A program made the position numbers and the translations under genes. The notes beneath the pieces were generated by a model. That model saw only the letters and a list, made by a program, of their open reading frames with translations, did not search any database and had not been told where the DNA came from. From a virus, in IMG/VR virus record IMGVR_UViG_3300020421_000088, positions 1 to 31,877 of that record: a stretch of DNA of 31,877 bases; one strand, written 5' to 3'. Positions 6,708 through 31,877 of this stretch are shown piece after piece. Positions within the stretch are counted from its first letter, which is position 1; each line of letters opens with the position of its first letter.

Positions 6708-7301
6708 TTACGGTTCTTCGTAGCCAAAATCTCCGCCTTCGTAGTTGGCTTCTTGATTTGGAGCAGGAAATGGCCAACCTCCCATTCCACCACCTGTAAT
6801 ATCAATTTTTCCAGTCTTATTGTCAATATGAATTTCTTTTTTTGCAGCTATATCTTGTACATCAACAAAATCATCCCACTTTGGTTCCCACCTTGATACA
6901 CCGCCTTTATTTGTCCAGTAGTGCATTCCGCTTCTACTTTCCCATCCTCTGAAAAGTGACTTCATCTCTTTTTCAATTTTAGCTACTTTTTTCAGATCTT
7001 CAGGTGTTATGCTGCTGCTACCTGCTGTAGGTATGCCGCCTGCTTTTTTAATTTTTGCTGAATATGCTTTTGCTATTTTCATTATTTCTGGAGCAATTGA
7101 TTTTCTTGTCCATACTTTTAACATATTATTCTTTTTTATCCAATCAACATCTATTTCATCAGGTTCAGCGTTAAATCTAATTTTTTTAGACATTGCTATT
7201 TGTTCTGGAGTTGCCTCTTCTTTTAAGACTTGTCTTTTAAAATAGCTCTCTTGAATCTTTTTAAAAGAACCTTTTTTAGGTTTCCAATCAAATTTTTTCA
7301 T
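6708..7301 (-). CDS. Putative packaged protein, paralogue A
   Basis: Unrecognised function, 197 aa, soluble and Lys/Gly-rich. It is a clear paralogue of the next gene upstream. The first 30 residues match at 25 positions, sharing PKKGSFKKIQE and QVLKEEA. The C-terminal region shares a GKI-(3)-GGGMGGW-x2-PA motif. Residues 26-28 (L-K-E) fit the (L/I)-x-E consensus cut by T4-type prohead proteases, so the basic N-terminus could be a removable capsid-targeting peptide. That is inference. The ATG follows CTGGAG. The end is acidic and aromatic (GDFGYEEP). It is the last gene before a terminator. Confidence 0.7.
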   Translation of the reverse strand: MKKFDWKPKKGSFKKIQESYFKRQVLKEEATPEQIAMSKKIRFNAEPDEIDVDWIKKNNMLKVWTRKSIAPEIMKIAKAYSAKIKKAGGIPTAGSSSITPEDLKKVAKIEKEMKSLFRGWESRSGMHYWTNKGGVSRWEPKWDDFVDVQDIAAKKEIHIDNKTGKIDITGGGMGGWPFPAPNQEANYEGGDFGYEEP

Positions 7302-7328
7302 TAAATTACTCCAGTTATTTTTTTTAAT

Positions 7329-7895
7329 TTATTGTATGTATCCTGAGTACAGTCCTTCTTCAGCTTCTTTTTCATTTGCAGCTGGACTTCCCCAGCCTCC
7401 CATGCCTCCGCCTGATACTTTTATCTTGCCGTCTTTTAAAGATACTTGTAAATCTTTTCTAGCAGCAGAATCAACAACTCCTATCCAGTCAGGAGAGTTG
7501 TCATAAATATTTATACCCTGAAGTTTGATAACGTCATCTAGAGGATCACCATACATCCATCCTTTTCCTTTGGAGACATGTTTTTTCATCATGTCTTCTA
7601 GTTGCTTCATCTTGCCTTTGTCATTGCCAACGCCGCCTAATTTCTTAATTGCTTTTGAAAACTCATTTGCTGTTTTCTTTGCTCTTGGATCGATACCTTT
7701 TCGGCTCCATACTTTTTCCATATTATTCTTTTTTATCCAAGCAGGATCTATATTATCAGCATTCCAAAAATTATATTTTTTTGCAAGTGCTTCTTGCTCT
7801 GGAGATGCTTCTTCTTTTAAGACTTGTTTCTTAAAATAGTTCTCCTGAATCTTTTTAAAAGATCCTTTTTTCGGTGGCCAGTTAAATTTTATCAT
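7329..7895 (-). CDS. Putative packaged protein, paralogue B
   Basis: Unrecognised function, 188 aa. Paralogous to the gene just downstream along most of its length: a shared basic N-terminus (PKKGSFKKIQENYF), a shared PAWIKKNNMEKVWSRK / DWIKKNNMLKVWTRK block at about 50-70, and the C-terminal SGGGMGGW motif. The middle differs. L26-K27-E28 again fits a prohead-protease-type site. The leader is also duplicated: both genes have AACTGGAGT just before the ATG. This suggests a tandem duplication that has since diverged. There are no membrane segments and no recognised catalytic motif. Confidence 0.7.
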   Translation of the reverse strand: MIKFNWPPKKGSFKKIQENYFKKQVLKEEASPEQEALAKKYNFWNADNIDPAWIKKNNMEKVWSRKGIDPRAKKTANEFSKAIKKLGGVGNDKGKMKQLEDMMKKHVSKGKGWMYGDPLDDVIKLQGINIYDNSPDWIGVVDSAARKDLQVSLKDGKIKVSGGGMGGWGSPAANEKEAEEGLYSGYIQ

Positions 7896-7918
7896 TAGTC
7901 AACTCCAGTTAATTTTAT

Positions 7919-7926
7919 ATAAATAT
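7919..7926 (-). promoter_or_regulatory. ATATTTAT element before paralogue B
   Basis: The minus strand carries ATATTTAT 23 bases upstream of the ATG, in a short intergenic gap. The same octamer, in one orientation or the other, occurs in five other gaps of the window. It is a candidate promoter or processing element. Confidence 0.25.
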
Positions 7927-8315
7927 TAAACGTTTATTATTTTGTACAGCTTAGTTCTTATTACATTCAATCCTGCATCATTTGTAAGCAGTAATGAATT
8001 CCTATAGCTTTCCCAGTTTAGTGAATAAGACTTATCCAATATACCGTTATTCTCTTTTCTTATTGCTTCATTTAAAGCATTAATCGTGTATAGTGTATTT
8101 GTCTCTTTCTTTCTGTGAATTGCCATAGTCTTATTGTTCTGTATAAAATCTTCTGTCTTTTCTACGTTATATGTACAGATTAGAGAATTGTTATCGTCCA
8201 TATTCTCAAAAACGTATATCTTGTTAAATACTATTTCAGACGCCATACTGATTAATTGTGTAGTGTCTTCAAAGTCTTGTTTTGTACAAAATGTACATAA
8301 TAATTGTGTTTTCAT
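7926..8315 (-). CDS. Hypothetical protein, 129 aa
   Basis: Not recognised with confidence. It starts MKTQLLCTFCTKQDFE, continues as a mixed alpha/beta soluble protein (EIVFNKIYVFENMDD, SLICTYNVEK) and ends TKLYKIINV. The overall look recalls a small conserved protein of T4-like marine phages, but I cannot name a function. No signal peptide, membrane helix or cleavage-type N-terminal tag is visible, unlike its neighbours. The ATG overlaps the Nudix stop codon (TAATG), so it is translationally coupled to it. Confidence 0.6.
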   Translation of the reverse strand: MKTQLLCTFCTKQDFEDTTQLISMASEIVFNKIYVFENMDDNNSLICTYNVEKTEDFIQNNKTMAIHRKKETNTLYTINALNEAIRKENNGILDKSYSLNWESYRNSLLLTNDAGLNVIRTKLYKIINV

Positions 8316-8719
8316 TAGATTAAATCCTTCAGTCGTGGATCTGTTCTGTCTGGTAGTTTATTAAACCACCGCACTTCTTCGTGCTCTAAACTTTTAGTTG
8401 GTAAAACAGCCATCTTCATTCTAGTTTCATAAATATAAAAGTTGCCACCTCTTGAATTTCTCTTTGTGGCTTTTAGTTCAACTGGGCTGTTTAAATGTGA
8501 TCCTTGTTTTTTGACAAAAATAGAAACTTCTTCTATCGTCTCCCTACATGCTGCATCGATTGGTTCTTCGCCTGGCTCCACTTTACCTTTTGGAATTCCC
8601 CACTCATACGCATCTGTTGCATCCTTAACCAATACAACACCTGCGATCGGATCTCTTAATATTATTCCAGCAGTATCCATAACTTTTTCTTCCATTAATA
8701 TATCCTTTAATTTTATCAC
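8315..8719 (-). CDS. Nudix hydrolase with a possible capsid-targeting N-terminus
   Basis: Nudix enzymes hydrolyse nucleoside diphosphates linked to another group (such as NTPs, nucleotide sugars, ADP-ribose compounds or RNA caps). The Nudix box spans residues 45-67 and reads GKVEPGEEPIDAACRETIEE at its core: G45, E51, R59-E60 and E63-E64 are in place, while the usual final Gly is replaced by Ser. The fold starts at DTAGIILRD. Before it is a 14-residue extension beginning MIKLKDILME, almost identical to the start of the upstream neighbour. L8-M9-E10 fits a prohead protease site. The start is GTG, overlapping the upstream stop (GTGA), with AGGAG seven bases before it. The substrate cannot be predicted. 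Length is 134 aa. Confidence 0.85.
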   Translation of the reverse strand: MIKLKDILMEEKVMDTAGIILRDPIAGVVLVKDATDAYEWGIPKGKVEPGEEPIDAACRETIEEVSIFVKKQGSHLNSPVELKATKRNSRGGNFYIYETRMKMAVLPTKSLEHEEVRWFNKLPDRTDPRLKDLI

Positions 8720-8970
8720 TTAAAGACTCCTGCGCCTTTTTTACCAGATGTCATAATAAAATTAGTAAACCAATTCTTCTCCTCGCCTACCCTTTTGACT
8801 GCCTTGTACAAACCGTCTTTACTAATCTTACTCTGCCTTGCGACATCATCTGATATTTCTTTTAATTTTTCTTGTGATACTCTTATCTCATTGCTAATGA
8901 TATAGTCCCAGACTCTTCCTGCAATGTTATCCCACTTTGCCTCTAACAATATGTCTTTTAGTTTTATCAT
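8716..8970 (-). CDS. Small protein sharing the Nudix protein's N-terminal tag
   Basis: 84 aa, function unknown. It begins MIKLKDILLEAK, differing from the Nudix neighbour at one position in the first ten residues. L8-L9-E10 followed by A11 is a good match to a T4-type prohead protease site. The rest is helical and basic (VSQEKLKEISDDVARQSK) and ends KKGAGVFK; a small DNA-binding fold is possible but unproven. The ATG overlaps the preceding stop (TAATG) and the end overlaps the Nudix start, so three genes are tightly coupled. Confidence 0.65.
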   Translation of the reverse strand: MIKLKDILLEAKWDNIAGRVWDYIISNEIRVSQEKLKEISDDVARQSKISKDGLYKAVKRVGEEKNWFTNFIMTSGKKGAGVFK

Positions 8971-10196
8971 TATTCTAATTCTTTAAATTTAATTCCATTT
9001 TGACTAATTACAGAATAGTTAAAATTCTTACCTTCAGCAGGAATAACTTTCATCTGGGGTGTTGACTTTCCTCTAAATATTACCCAGTATTTAGCTTGAC
9101 CGCCTCCTATTATTTCATCTATTGCTTTTTGTATGTCTTTATCAAATCCTTTTGGATCTCTTACATACTTTAATTTTTTAAGATAGTTAATAATTGTTGC
9201 TTGAGTTAGTGAACCTTTTGAAGACGAAAAGTCTATTTTTATACCTGACTTTATATCATTTGCGTTTATTGGCTCTATTTCATACGACATCGGCTTGACA
9301 CCTGGCCCTTGAAAAATTACCTGGTTTACAGAATTATCAGATTCACCAAGTAAGCTAGACATTATTGTATAAAACTCTCTTGTCACTCTTGTGTCTTCTT
9401 TGTTATATTCACCATTGACTATTTTTAATTTATTCTGTACCCTGTCTAGTAAGTAGTCTTTTAATTGAATTACTGGCGCAAATGCAGGAGATGATGCTGA
9501 CAGAACATCCCACGCACCATCTGCCTCCATCTTTTTTAGTGTTTCTATTGTTCTAAGTACTTCTTTCCAAAAATCAAACTTACTTACAGATGCCTCAACT
9601 CCTGCTCTTATTGCAGCACTATTATTTTTTGCTGTGTAGTCTTTTACTTCATAATTTGTGTCTGCTTTTATATCAAAGCTTGTATTGCCGCCTTGAATTT
9701 CGCCGCCGTCTATAACCCATGCTAAATAAATTTCTCCTTTACCAATTCCTTTTGCATCAATATCAAATATTTTTGTTTCTAATCCACTCTTAAGAGATAG
9801 GGGATTTGAAGCAAATTTTTTAATACTCTTTCCTTTGCTTCCTAGACCTGTATAGAATTCTTGAACTTCTTTTGATGATAGAGATCCTAGTACTTTAGTT
9901 GCTGCTGTTAGAGGAGCACCTGTTGGTAGCTTTGTAAAGAAAGACTCAAATTTTGCTTTTTCACTATCACTTCCGTTTTCTTCCCAAACTGATGCGTTCT
10001 TAAAGCTTGAGTAAGATTTTGCCTCACTTATAATTTGTTTATCAAATAATCCTTCTACAATATCTTCAGGAATATGTTTTTTTAGTTCTTCCTGCACCAT
10101 AAATACATGATATGCGTCATTTAAGTCGACCATACCGTTTGCTGTTTTTAGTGAGACCTTATCAACAGCATCACCTATAACTTTATTAATGTCCAT
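8970..10196 (-). CDS. 408-aa protein with possible PD-(D/E)XK nuclease core
   Basis: Not firmly recognised. The N-terminal 60 residues are helical (DAYHVFMVQEELKKHIPEDI) and end QIISE58-A, an I-x-E site like those cut by T4 prohead protease. At 150-200 the arrangement GKGE154, SFD175I and YE183VK185DY, followed by a helical basic stretch (SAAIRAGVEASVSKF), fits the acidic-acidic-ExK layout of PD-(D/E)XK nucleases. This is pattern reading, not a match to a named family. The remainder (200-408) has no motif I know. It overlaps the polymerase gene by 11 bases and has a good GGAGAG before the ATG. It lies in the putative cargo cluster. Alternatives include a structural or scaffold-associated protein. 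Confidence 0.6.
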   Translation of the reverse strand: MDINKVIGDAVDKVSLKTANGMVDLNDAYHVFMVQEELKKHIPEDIVEGLFDKQIISEAKSYSSFKNASVWEENGSDSEKAKFESFFTKLPTGAPLTAATKVLGSLSSKEVQEFYTGLGSKGKSIKKFASNPLSLKSGLETKIFDIDAKGIGKGEIYLAWVIDGGEIQGGNTSFDIKADTNYEVKDYTAKNNSAAIRAGVEASVSKFDFWKEVLRTIETLKKMEADGAWDVLSASSPAFAPVIQLKDYLLDRVQNKLKIVNGEYNKEDTRVTREFYTIMSSLLGESDNSVNQVIFQGPGVKPMSYEIEPINANDIKSGIKIDFSSSKGSLTQATIINYLKKLKYVRDPKGFDKDIQKAIDEIIGGGQAKYWVIFRGKSTPQMKVIPAEGKNFNYSVISQNGIKFKELE

Positions 10197-11487
10197 TTAT
10201 TCTCTCCGTTATATCTTGCATTTCCCCATAGTTTAAACCTGCCTTTATCTTAACAGGAAAGGAACCTGCATTTAATATTTTCTTTAACCGTAGTATCACT
10301 TCTAGTCCCTCTGTCCTATCTAGATCAAACAGAAAACTATCATACGTATATAATATCATGTTAGTGCTACGAGACTTTAAAAAATCTTGTATTTTCTTTA
10401 TAGTCTCTATATTCTGCTCCGTTTCATACGATTGAATAAAATAGTTCAATACTTTATTTTTATTTGCATCAGGAACATTACTTGACGCAAACTGTCGTCT
10501 ATAAATATGCGATTTAAAATGTTTATGCTTTTTAAAATAACCCCATAGTGCATCTGACATTTTATCAACTTTATAGAAAAACGGGTTCTCTTTTTCTGTT
10601 ACTTTGACATTACCATAAAGTATCTGCCATGATATTCTTTTTGCCTCATCATATGAAGACTTATAAATAGTATCTGCAAAGTGCTGATGAAGTGATGCAT
10701 CATCGGGCACATCGTATTTTAATATCTTTGCAAGTAGCCTTAGATGATATGCATCATAGTCAAATTCAACTAGCATTCCTGGATTATGCCTTGTCACTAT
10801 CTGATTTCTTGTATCATCGTTCTTATTTAGTGCACCTAGATTAATTCCTCTAAATGTATTAGAAGGTCTACCTGTTGTTGTGAGTATATTAAAATTTGAA
10901 TATGCATAACCATTCTTGAAAACTCTTTTGAAAGGACCCATTGTAATTTTAAGACCAGACTTTTCTAATCCTGCAAACGTTATTAGTGACTTATTATATT
11001 TTAAGTAGGGTTTTGTAATATTTTTAGGATCCTGTATAGTTGCTAATTTAGATTCTGAATACTGTATAACTTTTGTGATTGGTATCAGCTTGTTGATTCC
11101 TTGCTTTTTTGATGTTCCTAAGTGTTCAAAAACATGTGGAAGCACAGGCTTATCTACTTTTTCATTATTAAAGTAAGATAATAATTTTGCATCATAACAG
11201 TTTTTTAAACCTGTTAGGTGATAAAACTCTTTTGCATCATCTACAAAAAATCTTTTAATTTTTGATAATTCTGATAAATCTATTTCATTAGTTTTTGGCC
11301 AGCTTTCTGATTCTGTGTGGTCTAAAACGATGTTATAAACATCATCGTTATACTTTATTGTTATGATAATTGGATCACATTCTGCGGGGTGGTATCTAAA
11401 ATCGTCAGAAACTGCTGTTGCAAATACTGTCTTATTGCTTAGCTTACTAACCAGATCATTGTATTGTTGTCTGCTTTCTATAACCAA
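10186..11487 (-). CDS. Compact family-A (Pol I-like) DNA polymerase homologue
   Basis: 433 aa. The C-terminal half has the Pol I order: TTTGRPSN at 203-210, motif A EFDYDAYHLRLLA with catalytic D243, motif B EAKRISWQILYG with K283 and Y291, motif C LYTYDSFLFDL with D383, and a terminal PVKIKAGLNYGEM like the end of T7/Pol I enzymes. Both metal-binding aspartates remain. Other positions are changed: the motif A Glu is His, the first motif B Arg is Tyr, and the motif C H-D-E is Y-D-S. Residues 1-130 look like a reduced 3'-5' exonuclease-type domain with no clear D-x-E. No ATG is available, so TTG at 11487 with AAAGG upstream is chosen. It lies between a virion gene and the cargo genes, away from the replication block. 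It could be a repair enzyme or a non-polymerising derivative. Confidence 0.75.
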   Translation of the reverse strand: MVIESRQQYNDLVSKLSNKTVFATAVSDDFRYHPAECDPIIITIKYNDDVYNIVLDHTESESWPKTNEIDLSELSKIKRFFVDDAKEFYHLTGLKNCYDAKLLSYFNNEKVDKPVLPHVFEHLGTSKKQGINKLIPITKVIQYSESKLATIQDPKNITKPYLKYNKSLITFAGLEKSGLKITMGPFKRVFKNGYAYSNFNILTTTGRPSNTFRGINLGALNKNDDTRNQIVTRHNPGMLVEFDYDAYHLRLLAKILKYDVPDDASLHQHFADTIYKSSYDEAKRISWQILYGNVKVTEKENPFFYKVDKMSDALWGYFKKHKHFKSHIYRRQFASSNVPDANKNKVLNYFIQSYETEQNIETIKKIQDFLKSRSTNMILYTYDSFLFDLDRTEGLEVILRLKKILNAGSFPVKIKAGLNYGEMQDITERINGH

Positions 11488-12482: not shown

Positions 12483-15400
12483 TAATAATCTCCTGATCCT
12501 CTTGGCCTACCTGGAAACCTTGTTGCTCTACCTAAAGTCTGTCTTTCTTCAAATACAGATCTGTTGACGTCTAATGTCTTGTCAGGATTCATAAAGTCAT
12601 CTAAGTTGTCATATTCAAATAGTGTTGTTCCTCCAATATTAAATGATGTATTACTGTCACCTATTCTGTGATAAGAGTCTGTATCAGCAGGGTCGAAATA
12701 AATTGTATCTTTTATCTGATCATCTGGCTCAAGTATTATAGTTTGTGCAGGTGGAGGATATGGATCATTTACAGGTGGTGGGCCAGGAGGTGCTCCTCCT
12801 CCAGCAGGTGGTGCTTTTGGCTCAGGTGCCTTGACAGGAGGTATATCAGGCTCTGCTTTAATAAAGTTACTTATCTTTTCTTTGTATACTTCTCTGACTA
12901 TATCTCTTGACTTTGATACTTCTTTTTCTTCATATAAGGCATCTTTTGATTTGTTTAGTGCTGCTGTTATTTGAGTGTCCCATCCGTCTGCACTTATTGT
13001 GTGTGTCAGTCCCATTACTGAAAAATACGTCTTTGGCATAATATCATTTGGCTTGACATATGCAGGTTTTCTAATTGAATAGTCTACTTGTCCATATACT
13101 TCTGGAAGATAAGACAGCCTAAACATATCACCCGGATAAATTCCTCCGCATCCTTCTATTGTCATGTCAACGTTTATTGGCATTGTCAACGGCCCTTGAT
13201 TATTTGCAGAAAATCTAGTGAGAGGTGACTCAGACAAGAACCACTTCATTGCTCTTTTAAACGAATCTATTAGCTCCCCTTTTGAATTATAAGGCTGCCT
13301 ATAAACTTTTTGACCTTTATCATTTATATCATATGCAAACAGTTTTGCAAGATCTTTAGCTGATGATTTTCCTGACTTTACATCTTCTAATGCTTTTGTT
13401 TCTAGCTTTACTCGAATTTCTTCGTGCTTTTTTCTAAATTGATCTAGAAATTTTGTTGTAGCAACATTTGATGATATTTTTTCTAATATTGGTGGTATTG
13501 TATGGCTCCATCTTTTTTCACCGCCGCCTCCTTTTGTAAGGCCATCTGGAGATAATAAAGGTGTAGACTGATCTGTATGTGCGAATTCAAATAGGTTGCC
13601 GTAATCAGGGTCTGGTGATGGGTCTGCATTAATTTGAAAGTGACCTATATTTGCTGGATCTGAGAAGAGGAGTCCTACTTGAATAAATTTATCTTCGTCG
13701 TTATCGTCTGTTCCGTCTTTAAAGTAAAGTTTTATCGCATCTTCATTTGAATTTTTTTCGCCTTCTTGTCTAGCACCTGAGAATCCTGCTGTTATTGCAA
13801 ATTTATCAGGTATTGTTGATTGAAGTGATATGTCTTTAATTAGTGAATTAAATCCAAAGTTATCAAAAACATAAGAATTCTTTGGGCTTGTGTCTTCATC
13901 ATCACCTGTTTCAGATCCTTCTGAAGATTGTTCTGCAACTACTCTAAATGTCGATATTGCGTCTGTTATGTTATCTGCTTTGTCAATAGTAAAATTCCAC
14001 AACTTTATATCACCATTAATAACGTCTGCTAGTTTAATCATAGAACTCTGTATTGTTGCTCCTGTTGTAGAAAATACAGACTTTATTTGGCTTAAGTTCA
14101 TATAGACATTTCTTAAATATCCTTCTGTCTTTTTATCATTTGTTGCAAATAAGTATCTATTTTCTTTTAGTACCTCAGTCTCTATTAATTCTGCCAATTG
14201 TCTGTATGGTGACTTTGTATCTGATTTTTCTCCTACTTTTGCAAAAAACGAAGAAGGAAACTGACCCGGTAAAATAAATTTTGAAGGATCATAAGTGTAA
14301 AGCTCAGGATCATTCTTTATCTTTACTGATCTTAAATTGCCGGCATTTGTAGTTGGAGTTTTGTCTAATGATCTAAAGTCTGCAAGTACTTTTCCGTCTG
14401 ACTTATCAGATCTTGTATAAAAAGATACGATGTTATCTTCAAACCATCCCCACCTAATCCAAATTTCACTAGAAAAGTCTCTTGCTCTTTTTAATACTGC
14501 TGTTTCTTCACCATCATTGTCTAATTCTCTCTCAAAAAGAACAGGTCTTTCTGATCCGTCTTTGCCTGTATCTCTTAATATTGCTAAAATATTAAAATCT
14601 GGAGATGCTACTACATTTACACCTGCAGGTAATTCTAAACTCTCATCTTTGCCATCTAGATTATCTTTAAAAAACTTTATTATTATCTCTAAGTCGAGTG
14701 ATGCTACCCTATCAGGCAGGCTGAGCTCTTTTGTAAACTTTCTTCCTACACCATACTGATCATTATTGTCACGATCTTTTGACATAATATCTTTTAATAA
14801 CTCATCTGCAAATTCTTCAAATGTAGGCTGTTTTACAGGAAATGTTTTTAACTCAGGAGGTGTCTGTTGTAATGCTGTTAGTGACTTATCAAATATATTT
14901 GACCCTCTCGATATCATCTCTGTCACACAGTCAAATCCGCCGTCTGGTCTTTGTGACCATGTAAATTTTGTAATTGGTCCTATTAATCCTGACCAGTCTC
15001 CAAAATATTCTATTTCTAGTTTATCCCACTGAGCCTCTACAGTTTTTTTCAATTGACCGTCTACAATCTCTAACGTATCTTTAAATAAGTCTTGGTTTAT
15101 TTTTACATGTTGACCTTCACCTAGCAAGAACTGAGGTACGTCTCCTGCTCTTCCTGCAGGTCTTTGTGACCTTACCCAGCCAAAGTCTAATATTATATTT
15201 TGACCTGATGACAGAAAAGAGCCTTTTTGATACATTTCTAACTGCTCTAATGTAAAGCACGACCAATTTATAGTTGCTTTTCTAACTGCTCCACCGTATC
15301 CTGTATATTCAACAGAGACATTATTTATTCCTGCAACTGGCTTTACACCAGGAACTGCAATTTGCTGTTGATGTGGGTGCTCATGTCCTTTTTCTGGCAC

Positions 15401-23048: not shown

Positions 23049-25412
23049 TTAGCTTGGGAAGCTAGCACCTGTAGGTTGTACGATAAAGTCCAATACAATA
23101 AACTCAACTGAACGTGCAGGTTGTAGGAATATCTGTCCTACTAACTGATTACGATCAATTACGTCTGGAGTATTGTTAGTATCATCCATAACAACTCTGA
23201 AAGCTGTCAGACCTTGATTAGATTGTACAGACTCTAAGTAAGGATTAACAATGTTCAGGAACCTGTTCCTAGTAGCAACTGTATTGTTTTCAAACAATAA
23301 GTAGCGTGAAGAACTTGCAACGAACTTCTTAACCCTGATAAGTAGTCTTCTTACATTGATCCTATCAAGTGCTGAAGGTTTAGCTTGTAATGTTTTCTGT
23401 CCGAAAACAACTACACCTTGACCTGGGAATGAAGCAATAGGATTAATCCTGTCTTCATATAACAAGTCTCTTTCAGCATGTGTTAGACGTGTTTTAGCCT
23501 CTAATACGTTAGCTAAGCCACCACGATTTAGACCTGCTGGTGCAAACCATTCGTGTGCTACTCTATCGTTTTGTGCTATTACACCTGGAATTACAACTGA
23601 AGGTGGTACCCAAGTTGGTAGATTAACGCTATCATCAAGAACCTTCACCCAAGGATAATAAGCAGCTGCGTAGTTTGTGTCAATAGACGATACTGCGCTA
23701 GTTGCTGCTGATATTCCATCATTCCATTGTGCAGGATCAAAAATATAGAAAGCATCGCCTCTATCTTTTACCATATCCATTGCATGATTGATTGGGTTAG
23801 GATGCAAGTTGTAAATAAGACCAGGAGTAGCTAACAAGTTAATGTCAAATTCATCCTGATTACTTACTGCGTTAATTGCCCTCTTATAAGCAACTGATCC
23901 ACTAGAAGCTGCGTTTGCGCAGTCAAATCCTTGTTGGTTTGTTGCTATTATATCACCAGCTGTCTTCTTCTTAATAGCAGGATTAGCACCGTCGAATCCA
24001 CCTTGTAGAGGAACTACGAATTTGTGCTGTGCTACGTTTGAAGTACCCAGTGTTATAAACTCAGACGCATCTGAAAATGTTGATGATCCACCAAAATCTC
24101 CTGATGATGCAGATGGGTGCCCTTTGAAGTCATTAAGACTCATAGTCACGTTAGCACCTGCTACTGCTCCTACTGGAAGCGGTGACAAGTATTCTCTATT
24201 GATCTTCTTTGAGAAGTCAAAACCGTGAAATGATGAGAAGTCTTTTTCACCTGTTGATGCATTTGATTGTACTGATACAAAAGATGCAGTTGCAACTGGT
24301 GATGCTCCAGCAGCGCCTATATTAACTGTAGGTACTGGCTGTAAGACTTTCCCGTGACCAAAAGGAACTAACGCTGCAGGTGCACCGTTCTTGATAATAT
24401 CATAATTTGATACGTAAATATACTTAGACATATTTGGCCAGTCACCATTATAGGTTAACTTACCGTCTGAATCTATTGTGACATATCTATCACCAATTTT
24501 TCTAGCAAAATAGTTTGCTGAAGTTGGGTCTAAATTAAGATTATCAAACTGTTCTACAACAACATCATCAGATTCTTTATAAGAGTTTTGGTCTATTTCT
24601 CTAACCTGTAAAGAAAAAGATCCGAAATCTGATCCTGCTATTGATCCTGCTTGTTTTACATTAGCTATAGCTATCTTGAATTTACCGTGTGTGTCAACTT
24701 CACCGTGTGATCTTAAATTAACTTTAAAAAGATTTGTAGTTGCATTATTGATCTTTTGTGATGTGATAAACGGTGTTACAGCATTCTGGTAGTCTTGCTT
24801 TAAATTAACAGCATTCAATGATCCTGTTACATTTGTAGCACCTGCCATTGCTGTTACTGGCTGAAATAACTTATATAGGTAAAATGGTGAGTCCTGACCT
24901 TGTGCCTTTGTTGACATTGGGTTAGCACTAAATACATCTCCTATGTAAGTTGCTGATGTAGAGTCTAGTGATGCTGTAAACTGGTATGATCCTGTACCAA
25001 TATTAAAAGAGCTAACAGATCCAGTAATGCTAGTCCCATTTAATTCCGCGTCTGGATTTAAATTACTAGGAGCTAATACTGCCACCTGAGTTGCGTCTGC
25101 TGATGATGATACTAGTGCACCGATACTAAGCATATTGGCTGAATAACCGCCAATACCTAAAACTCTAACAATCGTAACAGAGCCAGCACTGCGTAAGTAC
25201 TCGCGTACTGTAAATGGGACGTATAAATCTTGATCTAGACCTCCAAACATTTCCGCGAATTCATTGAAATTACGTACAATTGTAGGAACAAAAGCAGGAC
25301 CTTTTTTAGTAGGTCCGACGATTGCTGCGCCAATTTCAGCGATTCCTTGCGGAAGGAAGGAGAGATCTTTTTCACGAGTAAATACTCCCGGTGAGACAAT
25401 TCTCTCTGCCAT
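23049..25412 (-). CDS. 18: Contractile tail sheath protein (gp18-like)
   Basis: Forms the contractile sheath around the tube. The 787-aa length is larger than T4 gp18 (659 aa). The N-terminus RIVSPGVFTREKDLSFLPQG and IGAAIVGPTKKGPAFVPTIV are sheath hallmarks. The C-terminal domain has WFAPAGLNRGGLANVLEAKT, the ERDLLYEDRINPIASFPGQG strand, VVFGQKTLQAKPSALDRINV and RRLLIRVKKFVASSSRYLLF, ending in a beta strand (FIVLDFIVQPTGASF). The middle (about 130-480) carries extra Ser/Gly-rich beta domains, probably exposed on the tail surface. AATCGGAG precedes the ATG. It ends at a strong terminator. Confidence 0.95.
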   Translation of the reverse strand: MAERIVSPGVFTREKDLSFLPQGIAEIGAAIVGPTKKGPAFVPTIVRNFNEFAEMFGGLDQDLYVPFTVREYLRSAGSVTIVRVLGIGGYSANMLSIGALVSSSADATQVAVLAPSNLNPDAELNGTSITGSVSSFNIGTGSYQFTASLDSTSATYIGDVFSANPMSTKAQGQDSPFYLYKLFQPVTAMAGATNVTGSLNAVNLKQDYQNAVTPFITSQKINNATTNLFKVNLRSHGEVDTHGKFKIAIANVKQAGSIAGSDFGSFSLQVREIDQNSYKESDDVVVEQFDNLNLDPTSANYFARKIGDRYVTIDSDGKLTYNGDWPNMSKYIYVSNYDIIKNGAPAALVPFGHGKVLQPVPTVNIGAAGASPVATASFVSVQSNASTGEKDFSSFHGFDFSKKINREYLSPLPVGAVAGANVTMSLNDFKGHPSASSGDFGGSSTFSDASEFITLGTSNVAQHKFVVPLQGGFDGANPAIKKKTAGDIIATNQQGFDCANAASSGSVAYKRAINAVSNQDEFDINLLATPGLIYNLHPNPINHAMDMVKDRGDAFYIFDPAQWNDGISAATSAVSSIDTNYAAAYYPWVKVLDDSVNLPTWVPPSVVIPGVIAQNDRVAHEWFAPAGLNRGGLANVLEAKTRLTHAERDLLYEDRINPIASFPGQGVVVFGQKTLQAKPSALDRINVRRLLIRVKKFVASSSRYLLFENNTVATRNRFLNIVNPYLESVQSNQGLTAFRVVMDDTNNTPDVIDRNQLVGQIFLQPARSVEFIVLDFIVQPTGASFPS

Positions 25413-30425: not shown

Positions 30426-31217
30426 CTATACGATATTGAATCTCGCTCGTTGTGCATCAAAATTTTGTTTTATCTCTGCTGCTGTTAGTGATTTATTGTA
30501 TACTCTAGCTATTGCTATTCTTCCGTTTAAATTATAGCCTGAATTTTGATAGTTTCCGTGTGAAAGATTACCTATTCTAAAAGTAGCTGTCTCATTGTTG
30601 TGACCACCTAATATTGTAGAAAGTGAGCCATTTGAAGTTTGCTCGTCTGATGCCAGCACATTGTTTACATAAATATACATGCCATTTGTCTCATCTACTG
30701 TTAGTACTACATGCTGATAATTTCCTTGAGTTGTATTTACTGGTGTATGCAAATTAGTTCCTGGATAATAAACTCTATTATTCCCTGATGTTATTCTTAC
30801 AGTTCCACCAAATCTGTCATTACTAGTGCCGCCGATATTTATATTGTACTCATCAGTGTTACTTTGAAATGACCCCATTCCCATAACACAGCATGCGCTG
30901 TTCTGAGTGTGAGCATCAATTACTACCTCAAATGAAAACTGCTGTGCTGTGTTTATTGCATCGTCATTTAAACCACTTAGAGAACTATCATTACCAAAAT
31001 CTACATAATCGTTTGATCCATCAAAGTCTATATAGTGATTTCCATTTTGTTGTGTCCACCCATGTGAAGGACCATTTGTTAGAGTTCCGTGATTTTGATA
31101 CGGTGATAGGTCATACCAAGTTGTTCCTGATCTGGGGTAGCTATTTATATCACTGGCGTCTAGATTTAGAACTAACCTATCTGATGCTACAATATCTGGT
31201 CCTGCTGATGATCCCAT
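30426..31217 (-). CDS. LamG/concanavalin-like adhesin, 263 aa
   Basis: Probably a carbohydrate-binding tail adhesin. The start is ATG 31217 (MGSSAGPDIVASDRLVLNLD); an in-frame TTG 11 codons upstream lies inside the previous gene. LamG/ConA-like jelly-roll features are visible: LVLNLDASDINSY, SGTTWYDLSPYQNHGTL, IDFDGSNDYVDFGNDSSL, FSFEVVIDAHTQ, and VYNKSLTAAEIKQNFDAQR at the end. The D-G-S-x-D-Y segment and the terminal Q-N-F-D-A-Q-R are shared with the next gene upstream, so the two are tandem paralogues. No signal peptide is needed, as it is assembled on the virion. Confidence 0.75.
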   Translation of the reverse strand: MGSSAGPDIVASDRLVLNLDASDINSYPRSGTTWYDLSPYQNHGTLTNGPSHGWTQQNGNHYIDFDGSNDYVDFGNDSSLSGLNDDAINTAQQFSFEVVIDAHTQNSACCVMGMGSFQSNTDEYNINIGGTSNDRFGGTVRITSGNNRVYYPGTNLHTPVNTTQGNYQHVVLTVDETNGMYIYVNNVLASDEQTSNGSLSTILGGHNNETATFRIGNLSHGNYQNSGYNLNGRIAIARVYNKSLTAAEIKQNFDAQRARFNIV

Positions 31218-31218
31218 T

Positions 31219-31877
31219 CTATATTCCGTACCTGTTTCTTTGTGCGTCAAAATTTTGTTTTATATCATCTCCTGAAAGAGTATTTTCATAAAATTTAACA
31301 GAAGCTATATTACCTTTATAATAGCCTGTATTAAAATTTGATCTTCCTATCCAAACTTCTTGCTGATAATACTGTACAGTATTCCAACCTCCAAACGGTG
31401 TATTTGGAAAGGCCTCAGATTGTAAAATGACACCATCTTGATAAAGTTTACCTGTCTTTTTTGTTTGTCCGGAGGTGCTGTCTTTCATTGTAAAAACCAA
31501 TTGTGTCCATTTGTTTGGTGTGTAGGATACTTCGTCCCAAACAGTACCGGATGAATCCCAAGATCCATTATTATTAGATCCAAAGTATAATGTGTCATCA
31601 TCAGTTACTGTTCTGAAGTGCTGTGAGTAGTATGGAGAATTATGTGATATGTAATCATAACTCCACAGAACTTCATAAGTTCCATTTGGCACTACATAAC
31701 ACCAAAATTCAATCGTAAACTCCTGTACAGCGAAATTAGCTCTTCCGTCAGTCGTAACTTGAAAGTAATCATTTCCGCCGTCTAGAGTAAAGTAACCTGC
31801 TGCATTATATGTTGCACCACTTATTGTGGTATCGTTATTTCCGCACAAATCATACCAAGTAGTTCCACTACCAGGAT
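31219..31877 (-). CDS. LamG-like adhesin, 5' end outside window
   Basis: The reading frame is open to the window edge, so the true start lies beyond 31877. The visible part starts PGSGTTWYDLCGNNDTTISG, matching the SGTTWYDL segment in the paralogue, and continues with LDGGNDYFQV, FTIEFWCYVVPNGTYEVLWS and the terminal GDDIKQNFDAQRNRYGI. These are LamG/ConA-like jelly-roll signatures. Its stop (31219-31221) is followed one base later by the ATG of its paralogue, so the pair is translationally coupled. Likely an adhesin or fibre-associated binding protein. Confidence 0.7.
   Translation of the reverse strand, partial: PGSGTTWYDLCGNNDTTISGATYNAAGYFTLDGGNDYFQVTTDGRANFAVQEFTIEFWCYVVPNGTYEVLWSYDYISHNSPYYSQHFRTVTDDDTLYFGSNNNGSWDSSGTVWDEVSYTPNKWTQLVFTMKDSTSGQTKKTGKLYQDGVILQSEAFPNTPFGGWNTVQYYQQEVWIGRSNFNTGYYKGNIASVKFYENTLSGDDIKQNFDAQRNRYGI

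Follow-up and report, generated by a model that had tools for sequence, protein, structure and literature searches.

Proteins that are injected together with phage DNA act before phage gene expression and are a known route past restriction; to our knowledge, few injected phage proteins have been recognised, and their bodies alone give no recognition. Here we examine a cluster of six genes in a stretch of viral DNA of 31,877 nucleotides (IMG/VR record IMGVR_UViG_3300020421_000088, positions 1 to 31,877; this whole stretch is called the window), five of which begin with leaders that resemble capsid-targeting propeptides. The closest described system is that of the internal proteins IPI–III (and Alt) of phage T4, in which a ten-residue leader likewise stands on unrelated bodies and is cut by the prohead protease gp21 (PMC9026906, PMC3012670, PMC12373910). 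The first ten residues of IPIII are enough for packaging in T4, targeting depending mainly on residues 4 and 7 and processing on residues 8 and 10; gp21 cleaves after L/I-x-E, and Asp at residue 10 blocks processing and not targeting (PMC9026906). Packaging and injection have been demonstrated experimentally in T4, whereas for the phages treated here we infer these steps, as well as core binding, cleavage and the functions of the bodies, from sequence.

Other described systems are also comparable. The ejection-protein propeptides of phiKZ and SPN3US are long (often >100 residues), are cut at Glu by a relative of gp21 and are thought to be head-targeting (PMC5694885), and they are broadly comparable to the longer leaders described below as leaders 2 and 3, for which similar processing is predicted. 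The SPN3US cleavage motif is A-x-E (PMC5694885), whereas leaders of the window type end nearly always in (L/I)-x-E and not in the A-x-E or S-x-E of giant phages. The packaged effectors of the MuF-fused, portal-fused and polyvalent kinds comprise similar enzymes (ADP-ribosyltransferases, Nudix proteins and 2H phosphoesterases) that are predicted to be packaged and injected, and ADP-ribosyltransferases and Nudix proteins of myoviruses have already been predicted as packaged by genome analysis (PMC9503650). That prediction was based on fusion to a structural domain or on gene neighbourhood, whereas here it is based on a short removable leader; a Pfam search of the window proteins found no fused head structural domain.

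We consider, with a probability of about 0.8, that the five window proteins are head cargo with capsid-targeting propeptides, which are cut by a gp21-type protease, packaged and probably injected. The evidence for this consists of the leaders, their conservation, the unrelatedness of the bodies behind them, their agreement with the T4 motif, and the finding that collinear relatives encode a protease, a scaffold and a capsid protein. The propeptides, of three types and all N-terminal, would bind the prohead core, and the proteins would be enclosed during shell formation; the gp21-type prohead protease would then cut after the Glu of (L/I)-x-E and free the mature protein inside the capsid, from which it would probably be injected together with the DNA. 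The initial annotation had noted an early (L/I)-x-E site in five of the six genes and had proposed this T4-type targeting, and all five sites were located on the minus strand. MIKLKDILLE and MIKLKDILME (tag 1) open two neighbouring proteins with unrelated bodies, the Nudix copy being read from a GTG start, and QVLKEEA is present in two paralogues (leader 2, Glu28) and QIISEA in the protein of 408 amino acids (aa; leader 3, Glu58). The features are as follows.

8970..10196, minus strand: 408-aa protein with leader 3; open reading frame (ORF), five-member family alignment, no assigned body function
10023..10196, minus strand: leader 3, residues 1-58, MDINKV...QIISE; predicted cut before A59
8716..8970, minus strand: 84-aa protein with tag 1; ORF, homologues keep the tag, no assigned body function
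8941..8970, minus strand: tag 1 of the 84-aa protein, MIKLKDILLE; predicted cut before A11
8315..8719, minus strand: Nudix hydrolase with tag 1, GTG start; Pfam NUDIX, 7.7e-14
8690..8719, minus strand: tag 1 of the Nudix gene, (M)IKLKDILME; predicted cut before E11
7926..8315, minus strand: 129-aa conserved core gene inside the cluster; no leader, orthologue at the same place in relatives
7329..7895, minus strand: 188-aa protein with leader 2; nine-member family, no assigned body function
7812..7895, minus strand: leader 2 of the 188-aa protein, residues 1-28, MIKFNWPPKKGSFKKIQENYFKKQVLKE; predicted cut before E29
6708..7301, minus strand: 197-aa paralogue with leader 2; 48% identity to the 188-aa protein
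7218..7301, minus strand: leader 2 of the 197-aa protein, residues 1-28, ending QVLKE; predicted cut before E29

The number of early sites had been offered as an argument in itself; the sites are real, but the count is statistically weak. Judged from gene bodies, a stretch of 60 residues has a probability of 0.41 of holding at least one [LI]xE by chance; for 30 residues the figure is 0.23 and for 12 residues 0.09. Five of six genes with an early site give a binomial p of ~0.05 at best, two of the five being paralogues. We therefore rejected the count alone as evidence, because the motif is common by chance, and it is the shared leaders that carry the argument.

A degenerate pattern of tag 1, MIKLKDIL[FLIMV]E, was found in at least 119 stretches of viral contigs, and the tagged proteins, when looser starts from whole contigs are included, fall into at least 59 clusters whose bodies have no detectable similarity to each other at E 1e-3; the 84-aa and Nudix bodies of the window belong to separate clusters. 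That unrelated bodies share so nearly identical a tag goes far beyond what chance would give, and the idea of capsid targeting now has stronger evidence behind it than the early (L/I)-x-E sites first offered. The shared starts might instead have arisen when gene 5' ends were copied, or through selection on translation initiation, with the peptide itself functionless, and local copying is conceivable since tagged genes often lie in arrays with 4-base overlaps. Among 100 tags, however, there are 61 DNA versions in which the Leu, Ile, Lys and Asp codons vary, indicating that selection acts on the peptide, and the amino-acid constraint reaches residue 10 and then stops; we regard this explanation as exceedingly improbable. 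When bacterial and archaeal genomes totalling 257 Gb were scanned, the same pattern gave a single match, in a frame of only 12 codons, and tag 1 appears confined to phages in the searches made. No paper containing the string MIKLKDIL was found in a search outside of which most subscription journals and preprints lie. As a separate observation on gene arrangement, successive genes at 8609-13164 of contig G009 (L174), mostly with 4-base overlaps, bear tag 1 on differing bodies, including a HAD-phosphatase-like protein.

Because the degenerate pattern imposed a hydrophobic residue 9 and Glu at residue 10, the conservation was also assessed with unforced sets. When genes starting with MIKL were collected from the window and 12 related contigs, residue 10 was Glu in 42 of 50 and residue 8 was Leu or Ile in 45 of 50, and in a wider set of starts, MIKLxx[ILVM][LIVMF], residue 10 was Glu in 157 of 179 and Asp in none of the 179, all these being counts of genes, some of them orthologues, and not of independent events. 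In 1336 genes of related contigs, [LI]xE ends at residue 10 in 70 genes, compared with 16.5 +/- 3.9 per position elsewhere. Genes picked solely by this placement recover the rest of the tag, with I2 in 46/70, K3 in 44/70, L4 in 47/70, I or L at residue 7 in 51/70 and L8 in 61/70, and control sets with [LI]xE at residues 12 and 17 gave no recovery of I, K and L at residues 2-4. The positions conserved are thus 4 (L), 7 (I/L), 8 (L/I) and 10 (E), with 5 and 9 variable. Tag conservation in homologues of the window proteins had been proposed as a check, and the outcome was favourable: those of the 84-aa protein conserve tag 1, and those of the Nudix protein keep E10, with residues 6-9 variable. 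A distant Nudix relative (L256), from a 169-kb contig that has no Peptidase_S77 match, is untagged and aligns at 39% over half of the query; it was not counted.

As the T4 control, IPII and IPIII begin with MKTYQEFIAE/A and the vertex protein gp24 with MAKINELLRE/S (the slash marks the cut), and these leaders and MIKLKDILxE share one register, in which residues 4, 7 and 8 are hydrophobic and residue 10 is Glu. The conserved positions of tag 1 are the very ones mapped functionally in T4, and this agreement in length and position supports the proposed capsid-targeting role. The leader sequence itself differs, MIKLKDILxE here against MKTYQEFIAE in T4. Two cultivated phages are tagged, namely Microcystis phage Mel-JY01 (PP395634; MIKLKSLLQE/I in the gene at 60276-60926 and MIKLMSLVTE/T in that at 62056-62718) and Flavobacterium phage vB_FspM_immuto (NC_055915; MIKLIDLLTE/S in the gene at 24569-24994), and both have an annotated prohead protease.

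A gp21-like protease had been proposed as a further check; none was found in the window fragment, but it is present in large collinear relatives. Seven tagged relatives (G008, G009, G010, G014, G017, G019 and G029) share the gene order of the window, and all have a gp21-type protease (Peptidase_S77) near terminase-, portal-, scaffold- and gp23-like genes. The protease was found in all nine tagged contigs of at least 137 kb and in a tenth tagged contig of 169 kb; in contigs chosen by tail sheath regardless of the tag it was found in 8 of 18, the other ten having lengths of 7-40 kb. The scaffold-like gene, assigned by position and composition, lies between the protease and gp23, and most of the collinear relatives have L-L-K-E-A, or something close to it, at the start of its protein. 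Alignment of eleven gp23 homologues places a Glu, preceded at P3 by V, I or L, near the T4 cleavage site FLTE/A, which suggests that the protease specificity has been retained, though somewhat relaxed. Large members of the tagged lineage resemble T4 in having a gp21-type protease and a putative gp22-like scaffold, and the lineage does so in the clustering of its variable, tagged genes. A tblastn search for a tape-measure protein in the phage collection gave no match.

A separate observation concerns the capsid protein. In G017, the gene at 69461-70399 lies upstream of the prohead protease and contains a second copy of the stretch behind the predicted cleavage Glu of the major capsid protein (64265-65986), GGGVSNGATFTPGTGEQ being present in both; the same gene pair is found in G008, G012 and G016, and the two sequences co-vary between genomes. 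A core protein may mimic the mature N-terminus of the capsid protein.

Several points weigh against the packaging of the five proteins as cleaved head cargo. No prohead protease or head genes were recognised in the 31.9-kb window, which is a fragment, nor in G001 and G002, the long contigs most closely related to it and likewise fragments. Nearly all large T4-like genomes have the protease, and its co-occurrence with the tag adds little alone. P3 is Val in several gp23 homologues, a looser site than L/I-x-E; the T4 late promoter TATAAATA was not enriched upstream of tagged genes, a result graded uninformative; and a CCA-adding-like enzyme and a few other tagged bodies are not obvious injected effectors. 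A preference for Ala, Gly or Ser after Glu10 was also sought, T4 examples having Ala or Ser, and no rule was found. This lack of constraint would suit a leader that targets the prohead and stays uncut, always or sometimes, or is cut at other sites, and in T4 targeting is separable from processing, as Asp10 blocks cutting alone (PMC9026906). The conservation of Glu10, with no Asp among the 179 starts, far exceeds what targeting through residues 4 and 7 would require, and an (L/I)-x-E end is also present in leaders 2 and 3 despite their different sequences; we consider an uncut or differently cut leader unlikely.

The location of the window cluster, between the replication genes polA and ssb, raises another alternative, in which the leader would dock the proteins on a phage or host partner inside the cell (replication complex, RNA polymerase or membrane), so that they would act during replication and never enter the virion; the resemblance of some tagged bodies to ordinary metabolic enzymes would suit it as well. 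Other genomes, however, have tagged genes far from replication genes, one of them, in G014, being between the prohead protease and the scaffold gene, and the register equals that of the T4 capsid-targeting sequence including the protease site, whereas docking would need no terminal Glu. Docking in the cell is, in our estimation, quite unlikely, and head cargo with cleavable propeptides is the reading that we retain.

The case for capsid targeting is strong for tag 1 and good for leaders 2 and 3, for which fewer sequences are available. Leader 2 has the consensus M.KF.W.PKKGSFKKIQE...QVLKE/EA with Glu at residue 28; it is kept in the nine-member family and also precedes an unrelated body in L114, its end there being ILTE/G. 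In the pair L239 and L261, a differing stretch follows LLVE/Y and the homologous body then resumes. The AlphaFold model of the 188-aa protein (mean predicted local distance difference test score 76) has a confident domain from about residue 31, and the confidence climbs from ~55 to 89 at residue 31, directly past the predicted cut; a fold search of this model against the PDB gave no match. Leader 3 is 52-58 residues long. The window and L001 have 57/58 identical residues in this leader and 195/344 in the body, whereas the window and L029 have 26/52 in the leader and bodies without meaningful similarity. The leader is present on two unrelated body families, with unrelated bodies of 670-730 aa, and its boundary, read by eye, is [IL]xE in 14 of 15 members, L275 excepted. 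The body of the 408-aa protein has no Pfam family above the cut-off, and its AlphaFold model was too poor in quality and was not used.

Other tag-1 genes occupy the ssb-polA slot of G010 and G029, indicating that this locus is a variable island. Bodies would be swapped and leaders retained, and the polA-ssb locus would serve as an island for exchanging injected proteins of host takeover or counter-defence, the cargo here being a Nudix hydrolase and four proteins without assigned function. A further sign of a variable slot, judged by eye, is an inserted epimerase-like gene (L029 6401-7294) and a methyltransferase-like gene (L259 29-688) next to leader-2 genes.

Pfam families matched by the tagged clusters include phage lysozyme, RimK ATP-grasp, poly(A) polymerase head with HD, Zeta_toxin, NUDIX, cell-wall hydrolase, ADP-ribosyltransferase exoenzyme, 2H, Acb1, which acts against the cyclic-oligonucleotide-based antiphage signaling system (CBASS), alpha/beta hydrolase and others. 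The tagged phages are distant from T4 and differ from it in having several leader types in one cluster and at least 59 body clusters, many of them enzymes. The novelty lies in the leader sequence, in the co-occurrence of several leader types within one cluster, in how large the body repertoire is and in the reach to T4-like phages far from T4; this is an apparently undescribed, large extension of the T4 internal-protein system, and the kind of system is not new. In T4-like phages known mostly from environmental sequences, the tag is probably the mark of an extensive, exchangeable arsenal of injected proteins. It is fairly likely, though well short of assured, that a T4-like lineage runs a modular delivery, with several interchangeable leaders, a protease site as the boundary and an open-ended, extremely large range of effectors, which would allow the injected proteins of uncultured phages to be listed by sequence alone. 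If so, Acb1-like anti-CBASS proteins, Zeta_toxin-like kinases, ATP-grasp ligases and CCA-adding-like enzymes, which are not generally known as virion-borne, would be added to the candidates. The short, specific and apparently phage-only leader could be used as a sequence test for candidates of injected proteins in metagenomes, and it predicts virion delivery for proteins related to ADP-ribosyltransferases, to Nudix hydrolases and to an anti-CBASS nuclease. A further suggestion is that the leader might be a natural tag with which proteins could be loaded into phage heads in lineages far from T4.

Some individual genes may be mentioned. The gene at L039:8704-9255 encodes a tagged 2H-phosphoesterase-like protein, which is most likely the one tagged member that matches Acb1 in Pfam (2.7e-4). 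A tagged ADP-ribosyltransferase-like protein is encoded at L047:887-1882 (= G014 13870-14868), between the prohead protease and the scaffold, and its homologue in G029 (88847-90037) is untagged, with another N-terminus. In the window, positions 10186-11487 encode a short protein like family A DNA polymerase (433 aa, weak Pfam match), found at the same place in relatives, and two adjoining genes (30426-31250 and 31219-31848), which by eye look like the LamG/concanavalin type, lie at the tail-fibre end of the fragment.

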